In this document: one piece after another, positions 7,977 through 16,523 of the stretch | How positions within the stretch are numbered: the first letter of the stretch is position 1 | How the letters are laid out: every line of letters starts with the position of its first letter | Source: Brockia lithotrophica | GTDB taxonomy: Bacteria; Bacillota; Bacilli; Thermicanales; DSM-22653 | DNA: 64,000 nt | Direction of reading: 5' to 3' | NCBI RefSeq assembly: GCF_003633725.1 | Contig: NZ_RBIJ01000006.1 | Coordinates: 62,001-126,000 of the forward strand | Notes under the pieces: model-generated | What the model was told of the DNA's origin: nothing | Database searches by the model: none | Seen by the model: only the letters and a program-made list of their open reading frames with translations | Program-made: the position numbers and the translations under genes

Positions 7977-8528
7977 CTAGGAAGGATGTCCGTCCGGTTC
8001 CTCGGGAACCAAGAGCGCGCGCAACGCCTCCAGGCGCGGATCGACCGCCTCGACCTTACAACCACATGGCCCTTCGTTGAGGTTTTTCCCACATACCGGG
8101 CACAACCCTTTGCAATCTTCACGGCAGAGCGGCCGGTCGGGGAGAGAAAGGATGAGCCAGTCTTCCAAGTGCGGGAGAAGGTCGAAGGCGTCTTCCTCTA
8201 CCCACTCGACGAGTTCGCGCACGGGAAGATCCTCCGCAGAAGCGGGAGGTGCCCCGCGGCGGAAGGTCTCGTCTACGGAGACGCGAAACGACCGTTCGAA
8301 CTCGCTTAGACAGCGAACGCATACGAGCCGTGCGGCAAAGCTCAACGTACCCGCCAGGTAGATGGCACCGTCTTCCCACCATGCGGATCCGTCGAAACGA
8401 GCCGGAGTGACATTTCGTACCTCCGGCCGCGCGTACACGCGCTCCGAAGGGGAAAAGGTGACGTGGAGCTCAAGCGGCGGGCGCCCCTCGAGGGCGCGCT
8501 CGCGGAGCTCGGAAAACGAAAGGCGCAA
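7977..8528 (-). CDS. yceD: YceD/DUF177 family protein
   Basis: A 183-residue member of the family next to rpmF in almost all bacteria and linked to large-subunit rRNA accumulation; YlbN is the Bacillus counterpart. Family features are the CVRCLSEFERSF segment in the middle and the Cys-rich C-terminus CREDCKGLCPVCGKNL. The inferred start is TTG at 8528 with GGGGGAAGG just upstream; the spacing is short, so the start is less certain than the gene. Confidence 0.9.
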   Translation of the reverse strand: MRLSFSELRERALEGRPPLELHVTFSPSERVYARPEVRNVTPARFDGSAWWEDGAIYLAGTLSFAARLVCVRCLSEFERSFRVSVDETFRRGAPPASAEDLPVRELVEWVEEDAFDLLPHLEDWLILSLPDRPLCREDCKGLCPVCGKNLNEGPCGCKVEAVDPRLEALRALLVPEEPDGHPS

Positions 8529-8700: not shown

Positions 8701-8811
8701 CAATTCGTTCAAGAACTCTTCGCCTTTTCCCCTTTTCCTCGGGGTACCCCCGGACGTACAATCGGACCGGAGAGAAAGAATGTGAAACTTTTATCAAAGG
8801 AGGCGCAGTTC

Positions 8812-9465
8812 ATGCAAGTGCGTCCGTGGACCCGCCGCGTGGCCTTCTTGGCCGCAACCTTTGTGCTCCTCCTCCTCCCGTTGGCCGCATGTTCGGGAAA
8901 GGCGAGCGAAACCCCCCAAACGCAGGCGCCGTCGGGATCGTCCGCCGTATGTCCCCCGTGCACGTGTGACAAGGACGCCTACCTCAAGGACAAGGTAAAG
9001 GAACTCTTTACCTTCATTCGGTCGAACGCAGGAAGCGTAGGCCTGAACGCGCAGGCGGTGAACGAGCACCTCAACGACTACATGATCGTCGACCTGCGCA
9101 AGCCCGCCGACTACGAGAAGGAACACATCCCGGGAGCGGTGAACATCCCCTTCCCGACCAACGGGACGCCGGACAACGACATCGTGGCGAAAATGGACAC
9201 CCTCCCCAAGGATAAGCCGATCGTCGTCTACTGCTACTCGGGGCAAATGGGATCTTTTACCACCGCACTCCTCCGCCTCGAAGGCTACGACGTGCGGAAC
9301 TTGATGGGCGGCTTCCCCTCCTGGCTCAAAGCCGGCCTGAAGACGGAAGGGACGGAGGCGGGTAAGTCCGCTCCCCAGAGCCAGACTCCCGCTTCGGGAG
9401 GAGCGCAGACGCCCGCGCCTTCCGGCGGCGGCTCGAGCGGCGGAGGCGGCGGCTGCGGAGGTTGA
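8812..9465 (+). CDS. Rhodanese-domain lipoprotein 1
   Basis: A 217-residue exported lipoprotein: signal peptide, lipobox LPLAAC with Cys27, a linker with VCPPCTC, then a single rhodanese domain (~85-180). The active-site Cys141 is in CYSGQMG, preceded by DLRKPADYEKEHIPGA. The low-complexity Gly/Ser/Pro tail ends in GGGGGCGG with Cys215 third from the end. Rhodaneses carry sulfane sulfur as a cysteine persulfide. ATG 8812 follows AAAGGAGG. Its paralogue lies directly downstream, and a sulfur/polysulfide-reductase-type operon lies beyond it; together they suggest extracellular sulfur handling. The tail's role is unknown. Confidence 0.9.
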   Translation: MQVRPWTRRVAFLAATFVLLLLPLAACSGKASETPQTQAPSGSSAVCPPCTCDKDAYLKDKVKELFTFIRSNAGSVGLNAQAVNEHLNDYMIVDLRKPADYEKEHIPGAVNIPFPTNGTPDNDIVAKMDTLPKDKPIVVYCYSGQMGSFTTALLRLEGYDVRNLMGGFPSWLKAGLKTEGTEAGKSAPQSQTPASGGAQTPAPSGGGSSGGGGGCGG

Positions 9466-9559
9466 TCGGCCGAACGGAAAGCCCCGCGTTCCGAACATCC
9501 GTCTCCGAGCTTACCTGCACGGACTCCCTAAGAGGAAGCGAAATCCCGAGATTTCTCCC

Positions 9560-9594
9560 GCCGTACGGGTCTCCCTGTACGGCTTTTTATTTTT
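9560..9594 (+). terminator. Terminator after rhodanese lipoprotein 1
   Basis: A 7-bp stem (9560-9566 with 9577-9583) followed by TTTTTATTTTT. It makes the two rhodanese genes separate transcription units. Confidence 0.85.
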
Positions 9595-9664
9595 ACTATG
9601 CAAATATTGTAAATACGACAGAGGGGCGCTTCATAGTTCTGTCACAAAAAACGCTTTGTGAACG

Positions 9665-9693
9665 CTAACACAAAGAGAGGCGAAAGGTATAAT
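9665..9693 (+). promoter_or_regulatory. Promoter of rhodanese lipoprotein 2
   Basis: CTAACA, a 17-base spacer and a consensus TATAAT (9688-9693), about 68 bases before the start codon. Confidence 0.6.
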
Positions 9694-9761
9694 AGAGGCG
9701 AATGCGGCCCGAGATCTCCTACGAGAATCCGGACGGAATTCGCCACCAAGGAGGGGTCACG

Positions 9762-10382
9762 ATGCAGCGGAGACGCACCCGTTGGGCCCTTGCGACCTTC
9801 GTCGCGGTCCTCGCCTTTGCCCTCGTCCTCGCCGGTTGCGGGAAAACCCAAAGCGAAATTGTAAAGCCGCCCGAGGACGTCGCCAAGGCGAACCAGCCGC
9901 AGCCCGTACAGACGTGCAACGAGCAGGACATCCTCCTCCAAAAGGTGAAGGGTGACTGGAACGCCATGCGTTCCTCCTTCGGCGCCGTTTACCTCTCTCC
10001 GGACAAGGTGAAGGACAAACTCGGCGACTTCTTCATCGTCGACCTTCGGAAGCCCGCGGACTACGCCACCAGCCACATCCCGGGCGCCCACAACATTCCC
10101 TTCATGCCCTTCGGCACGCCGGACACGGACATTCTCGCCAAACTCGACACGTTGCCCAAGGACAAGCCGATTCTCGTCTACTGCTATAAAGGGCAAACGG
10201 GGGCTTACGTCACCGCCGGACTTCGCCTCCTCGGCTACGACGCCCACAACCTCTCCGGGGGCTTCGGGGCGTGGGTAGACGCCAAGTTGACCACGGAAGG
10301 TGCGCCGCAGGGTGAGGCTCCCGCTCCGGCGCAGACGGCTCCCGCACCTTCGGGCGGTGGCGGCGGCGGTTGCGGCGGTTGA
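9762..10382 (+). CDS. Rhodanese-domain lipoprotein 2
   Basis: A 206-residue paralogue of the previous gene, alignable over its whole length. The lipobox LVLAGC has Cys26, and the rhodanese catalytic Cys141 (CYKGQTG) is at the same residue number. It shares DLRKPADY, HIPGA and the C-terminal GGGGGGCGG (Cys204). The linker keeps one cysteine (QTCNEQ) instead of three. ATG 9762 follows AAGGAGGGG. It has its own promoter and terminator, so duplication was followed by separate regulation. Likely anchored on the outer face of the membrane. Confidence 0.9.
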   Translation: MQRRRTRWALATFVAVLAFALVLAGCGKTQSEIVKPPEDVAKANQPQPVQTCNEQDILLQKVKGDWNAMRSSFGAVYLSPDKVKDKLGDFFIVDLRKPADYATSHIPGAHNIPFMPFGTPDTDILAKLDTLPKDKPILVYCYKGQTGAYVTAGLRLLGYDAHNLSGGFGAWVDAKLTTEGAPQGEAPAPAQTAPAPSGGGGGGCGG

Positions 10383-10407: not shown

Positions 10408-10440
10408 GCAAAACGGCCGGGAGATTCCCGGCCGTTTTGC
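10408..10440. terminator. Bidirectional terminator
   Basis: A perfect 15-bp stem (10408-10422 with 10426-10440) with a 3-base loop, AAAA on the left arm and TTTT on the right. It serves both the rhodanese gene (+) and the chaperone gene (-), which converge here. Confidence 0.88.
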
Positions 10441-10441
10441 T

Positions 10442-11065
10442 TTATCCGTCTTTCCGTTCGGGTTCCGGCTCCTGGCGCAGGATTTCCTCGAGCCAGGCGA
10501 CGAGCTTTGCGTAGCGTTCCCCTCGCGGGGTCGCCTCGAGTTCCGCGCGAAAGTCGCCGAGCCAGTCGAGGTGTTCGCGGATGAACAACCGGGCGGCCTC
10601 CGGTTCGCCGGCTTCGAAGAGGAAGGCCAGAAATTCGAGCTCGAGCGTGAGGTGATCGGGCATGCTCGCGTATTCAGAAGGCAAGGTGATCCCCAATTCG
10701 TCGTACAGGTGGCGCATGTGCACCGCGGGATCCCCGTAGAAGTACCCTTTTTGCCCCGCCATAGGCACCTCCGCGTCGGGATCCTCCGTCCACGGCTTGT
10801 AGATAGACTCCACCGGCGGGGCATACGGGTGGACCGTACCGGAAACGGCGCGGCGGTAATCCTCCGCAAACTCTTCGAAGGAAGGCCAGAGCTCCCGCAA
10901 ATTGGGAACCGTTGTGACATACCCCGCCTCGTGCAGCAAGCGGGAGAGGTCTTCGGGAAAGCGGGAAGAGGTGAACTCCCGGTAAAAGCCTTCCTCAGGG
11001 GGTTTGAAAAACTCGGCAAAGAAGCGGTAGAGTTCCGCCTTGGCGGAACGGGTACGCTCGTCCAT
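10442..11065 (-). CDS. TorD/DmsD-type redox enzyme maturation chaperone
   Basis: A 207-residue all-alpha protein resembling TorD-family chaperones, which hold molybdoenzymes during cofactor insertion and guard Tat signal peptides. Visible features are the N-terminal RSAKAELYRFFAEFFKPP, the central PDHLTLELEFLAFL (the family usually has P-D-H-x3-E-L-x-F) and a C-terminal helical bundle. The client is probably the Tat-dependent molybdoprotein of this operon. The start is uncertain: ATG 11065 fits the family, but its ribosome site is weak and longer in-frame starts exist. Confidence 0.85.
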   Translation of the reverse strand: MDERTRSAKAELYRFFAEFFKPPEEGFYREFTSSRFPEDLSRLLHEAGYVTTVPNLRELWPSFEEFAEDYRRAVSGTVHPYAPPVESIYKPWTEDPDAEVPMAGQKGYFYGDPAVHMRHLYDELGITLPSEYASMPDHLTLELEFLAFLFEAGEPEAARLFIREHLDWLGDFRAELEATPRGERYAKLVAWLEEILRQEPEPERKDG

Positions 11066-11200: not shown

Positions 11201-12571
11201 TCACCGGCTCGGGCGCGGGGCGAATTGGGCGGCAAAAAAGTCCGGTGGAAGGCGCCGCGCACGGCACACGGGACAGAGAGTTTCCGGATCGCTGGGGCGC
11301 GCGCGGAAGGGGCTGCCGCAGCGGGAACACGTCCGTTCTTCGAAGGCGACGAGCTCGCGCTCGGAAACGGGGGGAGAAGCTTCCCAGCGGACGTCGATCG
11401 CCTTGCGCGGACAGAGAACGGCGCACTTCTCGCACCCCAGGCAGCGTCCCTCATCGAGGACGAGCACCGCTTCGCCCCCACGGGAGCGCCAAGAGAGGGC
11501 TTCCACAGGACAGACGCGCACGCACACGTCGCATCCGTCGCACGTCTCTCCTACGGCGAGGGTGGCCGTGAGCGCGAACTTCTCTCCGTATCGGAACGTG
11601 CGGAGGGCAGGAACCGAGGAAAGCCGCCCCCGGTACAGGCGCTTTTTTGCCAGCGCCCGTCCTGCCCCGAAGTCGTTCGCTTGCCCTTCACCGGCGGAGG
11701 AAGGGCCTGAAGGCACAGGGGCCTTCTCTACCTCGCCTTCCCCGCCTTGCGAAGGAGAAGCCGCCTCCCGAGGTCCCGCCAAAAGCTCGCGAATCCTCGG
11801 CGGAAGGAGGTGGTGAAACACCTCCCGGCGCCCGATCGCCTCTTGCGGGACGGTTTCGCGCCCCGGGAGTTCGCCGCCGGCGGCCTCCTCGCCTTCTAAG
11901 GTATCCTCCGCCAGCGGGACGAACGTAACGGGCCGGCCGTAGCGGCGAAGGGCTTCCTCGAGGGCGCGGAGGTGGCCTTCCACCTCCTCGTACCGCACGC
12001 CCCGCGGGCAGCGGCGGCATGGGGAGAGATCGACGGCCACGCGGACCGGCGAGTCGTGGCGCGTCGAGAAAGGCGAATCGGCACCTTCCACGGTTGCCTC
12101 CCCCTGCGGGGAAGGTGGAGCCGACGAGGCGGCGCTTCCGGCGGCGAAAAAGTGCGCCGGTTCAAGTTCGAGGATGCAGGCGAGAGGCCACGACGAACGC
12201 TTCCCGTGGGGAGAGACCGTGCAGGCGAGAAAGGGGGAGACCCCTTCCCGGGAAACGGCGCCGGAAGCGTTCTCCGCATCTTTCGCGGCCCCGGCGAGCA
12301 CCTCCCACCAGCGACGCGCGGAGGTCAGAGAATCGGGGGCTCCCTTTTTCGCAAGGGCTCCGGTCGGGCAAGCCCCGACGCAAGCCGCGCACCCCGTGCA
12401 CGCCTCGGGATCGACGGCGACGACCGCCGACGACCGCACGTCGATGCGGATCGCAGCAAAGGGACAGGCCTGCACGCACTCGTCGCATACCGCTTCCCGG
12501 CTTTTGGCGTTCAGGCAGACATCGGGGCGGACGTCGATCTTTTCCCCCGGAAAGAGGAGGTCCATCCACAC
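11201..12571 (-). CDS. Polyferredoxin with C-terminal zinc-ribbon-like tail
   Basis: A 456-residue iron-sulfur protein. Two [4Fe-4S] motifs lie near the N-terminus (CDECVQACP, CTGCAACVGACP) and two more in the last third (CDGCDVCVRVCP, CLGCEKCAVLCP), followed by a four-Cys ribbon (CSRCGSPF ... CPVCRARR). The ~250-residue middle contains LSPCRRCPRG and Pro/Gly-rich linkers and has no clear fold. Probably a cytoplasmic electron carrier for the sulfur-reductase-type complex or its maturation. GTG 12571 follows AAGGGAT; ATG 12565 is an alternative. A hairpin separates it from the psrC-like gene. Confidence 0.8.
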   Translation of the reverse strand: MWMDLLFPGEKIDVRPDVCLNAKSREAVCDECVQACPFAAIRIDVRSSAVVAVDPEACTGCAACVGACPTGALAKKGAPDSLTSARRWWEVLAGAAKDAENASGAVSREGVSPFLACTVSPHGKRSSWPLACILELEPAHFFAAGSAASSAPPSPQGEATVEGADSPFSTRHDSPVRVAVDLSPCRRCPRGVRYEEVEGHLRALEEALRRYGRPVTFVPLAEDTLEGEEAAGGELPGRETVPQEAIGRREVFHHLLPPRIRELLAGPREAASPSQGGEGEVEKAPVPSGPSSAGEGQANDFGAGRALAKKRLYRGRLSSVPALRTFRYGEKFALTATLAVGETCDGCDVCVRVCPVEALSWRSRGGEAVLVLDEGRCLGCEKCAVLCPRKAIDVRWEASPPVSERELVAFEERTCSRCGSPFRARPSDPETLCPVCRARRLPPDFFAAQFAPRPSR

Positions 12572-12706: not shown

Positions 12707-13783
12707 TCAGTAAAACCGCCAGGTGGGAAGGAAGTAGACGAAGTGCCCGGCGAGGAGGATGAGGTAGCGGAGCACAAATCCACCGGCGATCGCAAAGAGG
12801 TGCATGAGTTGCGACGTAGAGAAGAGGCGCGCGCTCAGGTTTCCTGCGTCGACGGGCCCGTGGCTCGAAGATCCAGCCGCAGCGAGCGCCGGACCGTGGC
12901 CGGCAAGGAGGTGCTTGCGCTCCCGAAGTTCGTACCAGAGGGGCAGCGCGAGCCCCAGAAACACGAGGAGAACCCAGAACGGAAAGGCGAGCCTGCCCCA
13001 CAGGAGGTCGGCGGCGGACGCCTTGGCAGCCTGGTCGCCGTACCACGAGAAGTAGAGGAGGGCGAAGAGGAGGAAGAGCTCGAAGCCCTTGAGCGACGTG
13101 GAGAGGGTGAGGTACGGCGCGTAGTGCTCTTGTACCTTGGGGTCCCAGGCAGTGGCCGTAAAGAGCGTAATGGCGATCCCCGTGGAAAAGGCCGACACGA
13201 CAAAGAGCACGGGGAGCACGGAGTTGTTCCAGAAGGGCACGCCGTGGATGTCCCCGATGAGGAGCGCCGTGTACGTCGCCGTGGCGGCGGCCATCACGAG
13301 ACCGAAGAAGTCGATCCAGTCACGCCCCTCCACGAGCCAGCGAAGCTTCTCCGGGGGCCGTGCGAAGAAACGATCGAGGTCGAGCGGCCACTTTTTCTCT
13401 CCGCCCTCTCGCCAAATCTCCGCCAGGGAAACCACGGTGCGGTAGAGGGCGAGCGGGGTGAAGAGGGTGAGGATGTACACGCCGATGGCCATGATCGACG
13501 TGGGACGGCCGATGTAAAGGAAGAAGAACCTCCAGGGGTGGAAGAACCCTGCCTCCGCGTCGATCATGAGGGCGGCGAGCCCGATGATCACGAGCGGAGG
13601 GGCGACGATGTAGCCGGCCCAGCGGACGACCTTAAGGTGCGGGTAGAGGCGCTGGGAAAGGTACGCCGTCGTGTACGCGCCGGCGCTCATCCCCGCAAGG
13701 AAGAGGTAGAGGGCGATGATCCAACCCCAGATCTGTCCCGGCATGATTTGCCCAGGATACATGCCAAACGCTCCGCTCGGCAT
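12707..13783 (-). CDS. NrfD/PsrC-family membrane subunit
   Basis: A 358-residue polytopic membrane protein with about eight hydrophobic helices and the family start GWIIALYLFLAGMSAGAY. NrfD/PsrC proteins anchor Mo/Fe-S enzymes and exchange electrons with the menaquinol pool. The conserved acidic residue of helix 3 (IDAEAGFFHPWRFFFLYIG) is present. It follows the Fe-S subunit gene by 6 bp. With the two upstream genes it forms a standard three-subunit respiratory reductase. Confidence 0.9.
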   Translation of the reverse strand: MPSGAFGMYPGQIMPGQIWGWIIALYLFLAGMSAGAYTTAYLSQRLYPHLKVVRWAGYIVAPPLVIIGLAALMIDAEAGFFHPWRFFFLYIGRPTSIMAIGVYILTLFTPLALYRTVVSLAEIWREGGEKKWPLDLDRFFARPPEKLRWLVEGRDWIDFFGLVMAAATATYTALLIGDIHGVPFWNNSVLPVLFVVSAFSTGIAITLFTATAWDPKVQEHYAPYLTLSTSLKGFELFLLFALLYFSWYGDQAAKASAADLLWGRLAFPFWVLLVFLGLALPLWYELRERKHLLAGHGPALAAAGSSSHGPVDAGNLSARLFSTSQLMHLFAIAGGFVLRYLILLAGHFVYFLPTWRFY

Positions 13784-13789
13784 CCCGCA

Positions 13790-14329
13790 TCACCACACGT
13801 AGAAGATTTTCGGCTTCGTCCCGAGGTCCGGACGGAGGGGACGGGCCTTCTTCTCGTTGATTTGCTTGTTGAGCTCGCTCTCCGGATCGTCGAGGTCGCC
13901 GAAGACGCGCGCCCCACCGAGACACGTCTGAACGCACATCGGCTGCTCGCCTTCTTGGATGTGGTCGAAGCAGAAGATGCACTTCATCGGCGTGTGCGTT
14001 TCCTCGTTGAGCACGCGGGCGTTGTACGGGCAGGAGGTCATGCAGTACTTACAGCCGATGCACTTGGACTCGTCGATGAGGACCACACCGCCTTCGGCGA
14101 TGTAGCTCGCCCCCGTGGGACAGTTGTACACGCACGGCGGGTTTTCGCAGTGTTGGCACTGCACAGGGATGTTCACGAGGGAGACGTCGGGAAACGTCCC
14201 GTACTCCTGCTGGTAGAATTTGATGAAGTGCACCTCGGGCGGAAGCTCGTTTTGGAACTGGCAGGATACTGTGCACGCCATACACCCTGCGCACTTCGTG
14301 AGGTCGATGAGCATTCCGTAGCGGGCCAT
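13790..14329 (-). CDS. DMSO/polysulfide reductase-type Fe-S subunit (PsrB-like)
   Basis: A 179-residue electron-transfer subunit with four [4Fe-4S] clusters in the DmsB/PsrB pattern: CAGCMACTVSC, CQHCENPPCVYNCP, CIGCKYCMTSCP and CIFCFDHIQ...CVQTC. It has no export signal of its own and would be co-exported with its Tat-dependent partner. The start ATG 14329 follows GGGGGTGAAACCC. It lies 13 bp after the catalytic-subunit gene. Confidence 0.92.
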   Translation of the reverse strand: MARYGMLIDLTKCAGCMACTVSCQFQNELPPEVHFIKFYQQEYGTFPDVSLVNIPVQCQHCENPPCVYNCPTGASYIAEGGVVLIDESKCIGCKYCMTSCPYNARVLNEETHTPMKCIFCFDHIQEGEQPMCVQTCLGGARVFGDLDDPESELNKQINEKKARPLRPDLGTKPKIFYVW

Positions 14330-14342
14330 TGGGTTTCACCCC

Positions 14343-16523
14343 CTAGATCTTCCGCAGGGTGACGATGACTTCCTGCGTCAGAGCGATTCCGGCGGCGGGG
14401 TCGAGCTTGTGGTAGGGAAGGAGCGTCATGAAGGAGAAGGCGAAGTTCCGCCCGGGGTTGTTCTTCGCGAGGCTGCCGTACGGCGCGTAGATGAACACCG
14501 CCTCGGGGTGGATCGCCTCCGTCAGGTGGACCTGGACGCGCCCCGTGGCGACTTCCGAACGCACCTCCACCCAGTCCCCCTCTTTTAGGCCCATGCGCTC
14601 TGCGACCCGCCGGTTGATCCACAGACGATCCCCGTGGTAGTCCTCCGTAAGCACGAGGAGGTAGGGGTTGCGCGTCGTGTTCGTGTGCGAGTGGTACGCC
14701 TGGCGTCCGTTGATCAGGCGGAATTCGCCCTTTGAGACGTCCGGCATGACGAGAGGCGGCTTCCAGTTGGGGATTGGATCGAGCCCCGCGGCCTTGAATT
14801 CCGTGCTGTAGAACTCCACCTTGCCCGTGGGGGTGTTGAACTTCGGCGTGCCGAGGACGATGGGCGAGTTGAGGACGATCGTCCCCTTGGCCTTGAGCTC
14901 GTTCAGGGAGAGTCCCGTCGGGGCGAGCATCGCCTGATTAACCTCGTCGAGCGTGAAGTTGAAGTACTTCCCGACCCCCGCGGCCTCGGCGATGCCCGTG
15001 TAGATCTCCCACGAAGCCTTGGTTTCGGGGTGGATCTTGCCAATCGCCTGCTGGCGCATGGCGACGATGGGCTTCTTCCCGCCCACGCCTTCGACGAGGT
15101 CGTCGCGTTCGAGATAACTTACCTCGGGAAGTACGTAGTGGGCGAGCTCCGCCGTCTCGCTCATGAAGATGTCCACGACCACCAAGAGTTCCAAAAGCTT
15201 GTAAGCCTCGCGGGCGTAGAGCGGGTTGTTGTAGTGCATGACGGGGTTCGAACGGTTCACGATGATCGCCTTGAGCGCCCCGTCGCGGATCTTGTCGGGA
15301 ACGGCGGTAACCACATCGTGGGCGAGGGGCCACTCGCTGTCCACGCGCGGAATCGCCGGCTTTTCCGGTGCGGGGTACTTTGCCGGATTGAGGTTGCCCA
15401 GAGGAGGCGTCTTGCCGAAAATGAGCCCGCCTTCCTTTTGGTAGTTTCCGAGGAGGGCGTTCACGAGAGCGATGGCGCGCGCCGCGTCGACGCTGTTCGC
15501 GTATTGCGTTCCCGTGGCGCCGTGCCACCCCGGGTGGATGAAGGCGCGCGGCTTGTTCTTCCCGAGCCCCCGCGCAACCTCTTGGATCGTCGCCGCCGGC
15601 ACGCCGGTGATCTCCTCCGCCCATTGGGGCGTATACTTCTCCACGGCCTGGGCGAACTGCTCGAACCCGTAGCCGTATTCCTGGACGAAGGCGGCGTCAT
15701 AGAGCCCTTCCTTGATGAGCACGTGCGCCAAAGCGAGCACGAAGGCGAGGTCCGTCCCCGGTCGAATGGGCACCCACTTCGTGGCCATCTGGTACATGTT
15801 GTTCACCCGCGGGTCGACGAGGACGATCTGGGCGCCCTTTTCCCGCGCCTTGGCGAGTTCGAGTACGTCACCCGGGGTGATCCCCTCGGCGAGGTTTCTG
15901 CCGATGTAGACCATGTAGCGGGCGTTTGCGATGTCCGTACCCGGGGTTCCGCCTACGGTGTGCTCGAAGCCCACACCGCGTCCGGCGTAACAGGAGGCGG
16001 CGTGCGTAAAGGTGTTCGGCGAACCGAGCGCCCACAGGAGGCGTTGTCCGTACCATACGGCCGTCTTTTGCCCCGCGTAGCTGATGTGGGCGATGACCCC
16101 CGGACCGTACTTCTTGCGGATTTCCTGGAGCTTCTCCCCAATCTCGCGGAAGGCCTGCTCCCAGGAAATCGGTTGGAAGTTCCCGTCTTCCGTGCGCTTG
16201 AGAGGTTGGGTGAGTCGCTGCCGCAAGTACGGTGTGGCGAGAAGGCCGTGCCCGCGGGCGCAGATCTTCCCCTTGCTCTTGGGATGCTGCGGAAGGCCAA
16301 CGGCACGCCACACGCGGCCGTTCTTCACGTAGACGTTGAGGCCGCAGAAGTTTCCGCACCCCGTACATAGGGTCGGGATTACGCGGATGTCGTCCTTCTT
16401 TTCGGCCTCGGCCTTCTTCCACGTCTCAAAGGAAAACGTCCCTACCGCCCCTACGGAGAGGGCACCTGCGGCGAGGGCCGTCGCCTTGAGAAACGTGCGG
16501 CGGGAGATCTTCTCCTGAAGCAT
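14343..16523 (-). CDS. Molybdopterin oxidoreductase, probable polysulfide/thiosulfate/sulfur reductase catalytic subunit
   Basis: A 726-residue Mo-bisPGD enzyme exported by Tat (SRRTFLKA at 8-15). The proximal [4Fe-4S] cluster is bound by Cys53, Cys56, Cys60 and Cys88. The residue in the Mo-ligand position is Cys178 (HAASCYAGRG), as in PsrA/PhsA-type enzymes rather than Ser (DMSO reductase) or Asp (Nar). Three-subunit order A-B-C and nearby rhodanese lipoproteins favour polysulfide or thiosulfate as acceptor. Tetrathionate and arsenate reductases are related alternatives that sequence alone cannot exclude. ATG 16523 follows AAAGGGGTGAAA. Confidence 0.88.
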   Translation of the reverse strand: MLQEKISRRTFLKATALAAGALSVGAVGTFSFETWKKAEAEKKDDIRVIPTLCTGCGNFCGLNVYVKNGRVWRAVGLPQHPKSKGKICARGHGLLATPYLRQRLTQPLKRTEDGNFQPISWEQAFREIGEKLQEIRKKYGPGVIAHISYAGQKTAVWYGQRLLWALGSPNTFTHAASCYAGRGVGFEHTVGGTPGTDIANARYMVYIGRNLAEGITPGDVLELAKAREKGAQIVLVDPRVNNMYQMATKWVPIRPGTDLAFVLALAHVLIKEGLYDAAFVQEYGYGFEQFAQAVEKYTPQWAEEITGVPAATIQEVARGLGKNKPRAFIHPGWHGATGTQYANSVDAARAIALVNALLGNYQKEGGLIFGKTPPLGNLNPAKYPAPEKPAIPRVDSEWPLAHDVVTAVPDKIRDGALKAIIVNRSNPVMHYNNPLYAREAYKLLELLVVVDIFMSETAELAHYVLPEVSYLERDDLVEGVGGKKPIVAMRQQAIGKIHPETKASWEIYTGIAEAAGVGKYFNFTLDEVNQAMLAPTGLSLNELKAKGTIVLNSPIVLGTPKFNTPTGKVEFYSTEFKAAGLDPIPNWKPPLVMPDVSKGEFRLINGRQAYHSHTNTTRNPYLLVLTEDYHGDRLWINRRVAERMGLKEGDWVEVRSEVATGRVQVHLTEAIHPEAVFIYAPYGSLAKNNPGRNFAFSFMTLLPYHKLDPAAGIALTQEVIVTLRKI

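Follow-up and report, generated by a model that had tools for sequence, protein, structure and literature searches.

Rhodanese lipoproteins with a terminal Cys-Gly-Gly arm beside a PsrABC-type operon of Brockia lithotrophica are candidate sulfur carriers for a sulfur reductase

Apart from the Sud protein, little is understood of how sulfur or polysulfide travels from outside the cell to the Mo site buried within Psr-type reductases, and a locus of Brockia lithotrophica raises the question of whether a mobile cysteine arm could serve this route. Growth of the type strain has been reported for H2 or formate in combination with sulfur, thiosulfate, or polysulfide (PMC5928048). In the 64,000-nucleotide stretch of its genome that was analyzed here (the window), two tandem rhodanese genes, R1 and R2, face the end of a PsrABC-type operon that is transcribed toward them. 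A first-pass annotation of this DNA had proposed that their products are lipid-anchored rhodaneses whose swinging tail cysteine relays sulfur to the adjacent reductase. With slightly better than even confidence, we favor the reading that R1, R2, and a third paralogue, R3, carry sulfur outside the cytoplasm, tethered to the membrane, for a Psr-type sulfur/polysulfide reductase, with the terminal Cys-Gly-Gly arm delivering sulfane sulfur to PsrA.

Both genes lie on the forward strand and encode single-rhodanese-domain proteins, of 217 amino acids for R1 (positions 8812 to 9465) and 206 amino acids for R2 (9762 to 10382). Their Pfam PF00581 scores (82 and 73 bits) exceed the cutoff of 22.2, which places both in the Rhodanese superfamily. 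The ATG of R1 at 8812 has a ribosome-binding site ahead of it, with a GTG at 8782 as the alternative start; for R2, the likeliest start is the ATG at 9762, which is preceded by AAGGAGG within a reading frame that is open from 9702. In each protein, a hydrophobic stretch is followed by a lipobox cysteine (Cys27 of LAAC in R1, codon 8890 to 8892; Cys26 of LAGC in R2, codon 9837 to 9839), the signal of a bacterial lipoprotein, and lipidation is predicted from this sequence feature. The two proteins are 54 to 56% identical and share the rhodanese active-site residue Cys141 (codons 9232 to 9234 and 10182 to 10184), which sits in a loop of the CxxGxx type (CYSGQM in R1 and CYKGQT in R2). An additional cysteine, C52, is common to all four close sequences in the alignment. 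The structural matches were to ordinary rhodaneses, Sud among them.

The unusual part of these proteins is the C terminus. Each carries an arm of 27 to 36 residues that ends in Cys-Gly-Gly (codons 9454 to 9462 in R1 and 10371 to 10379 in R2, located by a genome-wide pattern match), such that the tail cysteine is third from the end (residue 215 of 217 in R1 and 204 of 206 in R2). The R1 tail (9355 to 9462) is rich in Gly, Ser, and Pro, and residues 183 to 217 have an AlphaFold2 pLDDT below 50; the rhodanese core was modeled confidently, and the N-terminal linker is disordered too. The anatomy described in the first-pass annotation (two lipid-anchored-type rhodaneses with a common Cys141 and a flexible tail ending in CGG) was upheld. 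R3, which the first-pass annotation did not mention, is encoded upstream of the window, 18 kb off (C6:53485-54132), and has the C terminus SGGGGCGG. Besides R1, R2, and R3, no protein with a rhodanese domain was found in the genome (G000; 1.87 Mb in 12 contigs), and no other protein in it ends in GGCGG. A match to the pattern GGNGGNTGYGGNGGNTRA across the 1.87 Mb was obtained three times, each time as a rhodanese C terminus, and never in the reversed control. The Gly codons around the tail cysteine vary between copies, and the peptide is unchanged. A chance cysteine within poly-Gly was considered as an origin of the tail and was ruled out by the pattern count, the codon variation, and a relic in a related genome that is described below.

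The operon that converges on R1 and R2 lies on the reverse strand. It encodes a PsrA/PhsA-type molybdopterin subunit with a Tat signal (14343 to 16523; Pfam PF00384), for which the best match in the PDB and closest solved structure is the Thermus polysulfide/thiosulfate reductase (2vpw), followed by a PsrB-type iron-sulfur subunit (13790 to 14329; PF13247), an NrfD/PsrC-type membrane subunit (12707 to 13783; PF03916), a 456-amino-acid protein with two ferredoxin domains (11201 to 12571; Fer4 families), and a TorD/NarJ-type chaperone, torD (10442 to 11065; PF02613). A Tat-exported MopB subunit, a four-cluster FeS subunit, an NrfD subunit, and a Cys ligand for Mo identify the enzyme as being of the PsrABC/PhsABC type, in agreement with the first-pass annotation; PsrA scores 467 bits against the PhsA thiosulfate reductase model NF012032, below its equivalog cutoff of 694 bits. 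The part between the domains of the two-ferredoxin protein is variable and contains cysteines, and related double-ferredoxin genes also occur in other psr operons (L055, L109, and L112). G000 has another psrABC locus (L053; C1:576743-578896), whose PsrA is 72% identical; the 19 kb of this locus that were examined contain neither a rhodanese gene nor torD.

Separate control of the two rhodanese genes had also been suggested, and the sites on which that idea was based were recovered. These are a terminator-like hairpin 3' of R1 (9560 to 9583, forward strand), a promoter-like site with a consensus -10, CTAACA-17-TATAAT, 5' of R2 (9665 to 9693, forward strand), and, in the gap that separates R2 from torD and shared by the two genes, a palindromic hairpin resembling a terminator (10412 to 10438, from a pattern search); all are putative and are consensus matches only. 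Upstream of R1, a 12/12 promoter-like match (TTGACA-17-TATAAT; 8589-8561, reverse strand) lies ahead of a divergent gene (7977-8528).

Two related genomes bear on whether tail and reductase belong together. In a genome of the same genus (G001), R1 and R3 are absent from sites that are otherwise syntenic, and an apparent IS200/IS605-type transposase fragment occupies the place expected for R1 (L025:7650-7880). At this locus, the double-ferredoxin gene, the DUF134 gene, and torD are all retained, but psrABC is missing from between the first two; no rhodanese lies near the single psr locus that was found in G001. The R2 orthologue of G001 is present (78% identity to R2), but three lesions have ruined its tail, namely a TGA, the loss of 1 base, and a 9-base deletion that removes the Cys-Gly codons; over the part that is kept, dN/dS is ~0.25. 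A lost tail on a domain held under purifying selection in the nearest relative speaks for the view that R1 to R3 are ordinary thiosulfate/cyanide-type or stress-related sulfurtransferases, in which case the CGG tail would be an incidental, inherited Gly-rich spacer and the proximity to psr would be chance. In the other genome (G004; another genus of the same family), a DUF134-psrA-psrB-nrfD-ferredoxin-torD operon that is 63 to 94% identical to that of the window is intact and is followed by a truncated and frameshifted relic of R2, whose last codons still read QTAPAPLGGDGGCGG and then a stop (GGCGG-stop). The tail is therefore older than the present copies. Because an ordinary nearby gene at this locus (L052; C1:250001-270000) is only 62% identical, versus 90% for psrA and 94% for psrB, the psr and R2 cassette may have moved horizontally. 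The relic beside an intact psr operon, together with the absence of both tail and psrABC from the G001 locus, supports the sulfur carrier reading, whereas the tail loss in G001 and the decayed rhodanese beside the psr operon of G004 weaken a strict link between the two. The two refuting conditions named in the first-pass annotation thus gave a mixed outcome: co-occurrence with psr operons is clear, as described below, but the tail is lost in G001 and the R2 copy of G004 has decayed.

A broader comparison was made with the neighborhoods of PsrA homologues from class and phylum samples plus two further classes, in which lipoproteins were assigned by a simple pattern and several loci end at contig ends. 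A contig search with R1 alone as the query returned no relatives, and one with an alignment as the query returned 15 loci, of which L064 and L066 proved informative. In the first sample, the best other R1 homologues (from G022 and G042) are tail-less and lie directly downstream of psrABC-torD operons. We found a recurrent layout consisting of a tailed rhodanese lipoprotein, psrA, psrB, nrfD, and torD, to which a rhodanese lipoprotein with several domains is often added at the opposite end. All 26 distinct rhodaneses encoded immediately upstream of psrA (25 plus one from G866) have a terminal Cys or an in-frame TGA, with the cysteine endings SCG, GCG, GCS, TCSG, GCA, and GGC. Such an end is present in 1 of 57 other lipoprotein rhodaneses, and that one is within a psr operon (Fisher P = 3e-20 for 25/25 versus 1/57, computed on sequences that are related and not independent); as a background, a Cys is found among the last four residues in 23 of the 489 remaining proteins that these loci encode. 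The proposed co-occurrence of tailed rhodaneses with psr operons is clear, and the link covers Bacillota and one Bacteroidota genome. A parallel to R1 and R2 was found in a Flavobacteriales (Bacteroidota) metagenome-assembled genome (L064), in which a psr operon runs from psrA, psrB, and nrfD through two YeeE-like genes to two tandem rhodaneses that have identical SGGCG ends. A search of the class of G444 (four genomes) added nothing. A single-domain rhodanese ending in TPAPESPSCG is encoded on a short contig of another genome (L111:56-622; G079:C68).

Many psr operons, the second one of G000 included, have no rhodanese nearby, as would be expected if R1 to R3 were ordinary sulfurtransferases. 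That view is nevertheless hard to square with terminal Cys/Sec tails that recur beside psrA in several lineages, or with the exact pattern count in the Brockia genome, and we judge it improbable. The sulfur carrier reading is itself weakened by the psr operons that lack a rhodanese, by the psr operon of G004 that has no intact R2, by the relatedness of the counted sequences, and by gene order, since R1 and R2 converge on the operon instead of leading it and R3 is distant. In a poorly resolved tree of 78 columns, R1 to R3 fall outside the psr-upstream clade; since they do, and since R1 and R2 are convergent, the argument for these two proteins is made partly by analogy and partly from local evidence. 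A single origin of all tails was also considered and is unsupported: the same 78-column tree requires 8 changes, of which at least 3 are imposed by branches with good support.

The tail is also kept where the classical active site is gone. Twenty of the 31 tailed rhodaneses have no active-site Cys in any rhodanese domain (Asp, Gly, or Phe is found there), whereas all 99 tail-less rhodaneses retain at least one. The 20 proteins fall into about four groups: a two-domain clade with L066 and L144, a VGGC single-domain clade (L169-L176), a pair from G479 and G513, and L064. In an alignment of ten two-domain sequences, the only invariant Cys positions are the lipobox Cys and the tail Cys/Sec, and conservation of the tail residue in this set exceeds that of the classical catalytic one. 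Persistence of the tail without the pocket cysteine would likewise suit the main rival to a carrier arm, in which the tail Cys/Sec is a sulfur-opening thiol that either acts directly on S8 or long polysulfide, much as glutathione on a tether would with its Cys-Gly end, or releases persulfide formed on the rhodanese Cys, with products that diffuse to PsrA. The SCG and GCG ends may be likened to the Cys-Gly of glutathione, but tight coupling to psrA, with 26 such genes immediately upstream of it, points more to a dedicated partner than to a product in solution; we consider a diffusing product rather unlikely and a delivery arm the better account.

In four genomes (G444, G482, G547, and G687), the upstream rhodanese has a TGA at the position of the tail Cys, followed by one sense codon, a stop, and a hairpin. 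SelA is present in all four and a strong tRNA-Sec match in three; tRNA-Sec was not found in G547, a genome that is 85% complete. SelA is absent from G000, G001, G004, and G771, and the tail residue is Cys in G000 and G771. R1 and R2 thus do not qualify as selenoproteins themselves, the tail codon being TGC in R1 to R3. Because the energies of the hairpins stand out only moderately by themselves (z = -0.3 to -2.4), the case for Sec rests on the position of the TGA, its alignment with Cys, and the machinery, from which we infer that Sec is incorporated at the tail TGA in these four relatives. At the far end of two of these operons, a three-domain rhodanese has an in-frame TGA where relatives have Cys (L140:13167-14423 in G482 and L141:11707-12924 in G687), in the contexts YCGGFF-TGA and YCGGFQ-TGA with a strong hairpin behind, and is probably a second selenoprotein of the same operon.

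The position of the tail cysteine at the very C terminus of an extracytoplasmic lipoprotein could also suit a structural role, as a metal or Mo ligand in trans or as a second attachment to membrane or cell wall. A ligand in trans was rejected as unlikely from the PsrA alignment, in which all 68 sequences keep their own Mo-ligand Cys. Exchange for TGA/Sec typically affects residues with a redox function rather than anchors, and an N-terminal lipobox is already present; a structural tail is thus very improbable.

Collectively, delivery by the arm is supported by a tail common to three paralogues with variable Gly codons, by the Cys/TGA ends found upstream of psrA and scarce elsewhere, by exchange of the tail Cys for TGA in genomes with a hairpin and SelA, by loss of the active-site Cys from tailed proteins alone, and by the tandem rhodaneses of L064, with Sud doing a corresponding job. 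The swinging cysteine of the first-pass annotation stands in part: the ends beside psrA, the TGA exchange, and the tails without a pocket Cys lend it strong comparative support, and the G001 and G004 copies speak against a strict link. We propose that the lipid anchor would hold exported R1 to R3 at the outer face of the membrane, where the rhodanese body could bind sulfur, in particular polysulfide, or dock; in Brockia, Cys141 could itself be loaded with sulfane sulfur. The terminal thiol of the ~35-residue disordered arm (a selenol in some relatives) would then pick up sulfane sulfur as a persulfide, and the arm would swing it to the Mo site of PsrA for reduction to H2S. That relatives in other bacteria have such a tail beside the same enzyme, at times apparently with Sec in place of Cys, suggests that sulfur is passed on by the tail. 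We give about an even chance to the broader idea that psr-linked rhodaneses have shifted the working chalcogen from the pocket to a flexible C-terminal Cys/Sec arm, with wholesale loss of the pocket Cys in about four groups, and that such arms serve molybdenum sulfur reductases in general by delivering sulfur outside the cytoplasm, much like DsrC or glutathione on a tether, with a Brockia form that keeps both cysteines. A conserved, Sec-exchangeable Cys on a mobile arm beside psrA in several classes offers one residue to mutate and one peptide for mass spectrometry. If true, the proposal would give an example of a catalytic thiol that has left the fold to which it belonged.

The sulfur-supply role has a precedent in Sud of Wolinella, which is reported, as cited in PMC10092268, to supply polysulfide sulfur to PsrABC. 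Like R1 and R2, with their lipoprotein signal and adjacent psr operon, Sud of Wolinella succinogenes (PDB code 1qxn) is an extracytoplasmic single-domain rhodanese serving PsrABC, and there is a match to it in sequence (E value of 2e-4) and in fold. Sud is not known to carry a lipobox. The solved Sud chain has 137 residues and its domain match ends at 126, which leaves ~11 residues and no room for a 35-residue arm such as that of R1 and R2. Reactive Cys or Sec residues near the C terminus, on mobile arms that serve a second active site, are known from DsrC/TusE and mammalian thioredoxin reductase; these have unrelated folds and are cytoplasmic, and thioredoxin reductase moves electrons rather than sulfur, so that any resemblance to the rhodanese tail is one of analogy only. 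The multi-rhodanese lipoproteins downstream of psrABC-torD in Bacillota (G022 and G042), the nearest distant homologues, resemble R1 as lipoprotein rhodaneses of psr operons, but they have two or three domains, keep the active-site Cys, and lack a terminal Cys. A 2026 selenoproteome review lists five Sec rhodanese forms, with the motifs UxxS, UxxG, CxU, and UxxxxU (PMC13188914), none of which fits Sec followed by a single C-terminal residue; if true, the tail type would add a selenoprotein type absent from that review. None of the tailed proteins tested reached an NCBIfam cutoff, a Dethiobacter paper places rhodanese proteins only in other gene clusters (PMC10376724), and a published description of tailed psr-linked rhodaneses was not found in a literature search of incomplete coverage, mostly without subscription journals. 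Thus, the sulfur-supply job is known from Sud, and the C-terminal arm is the new part.
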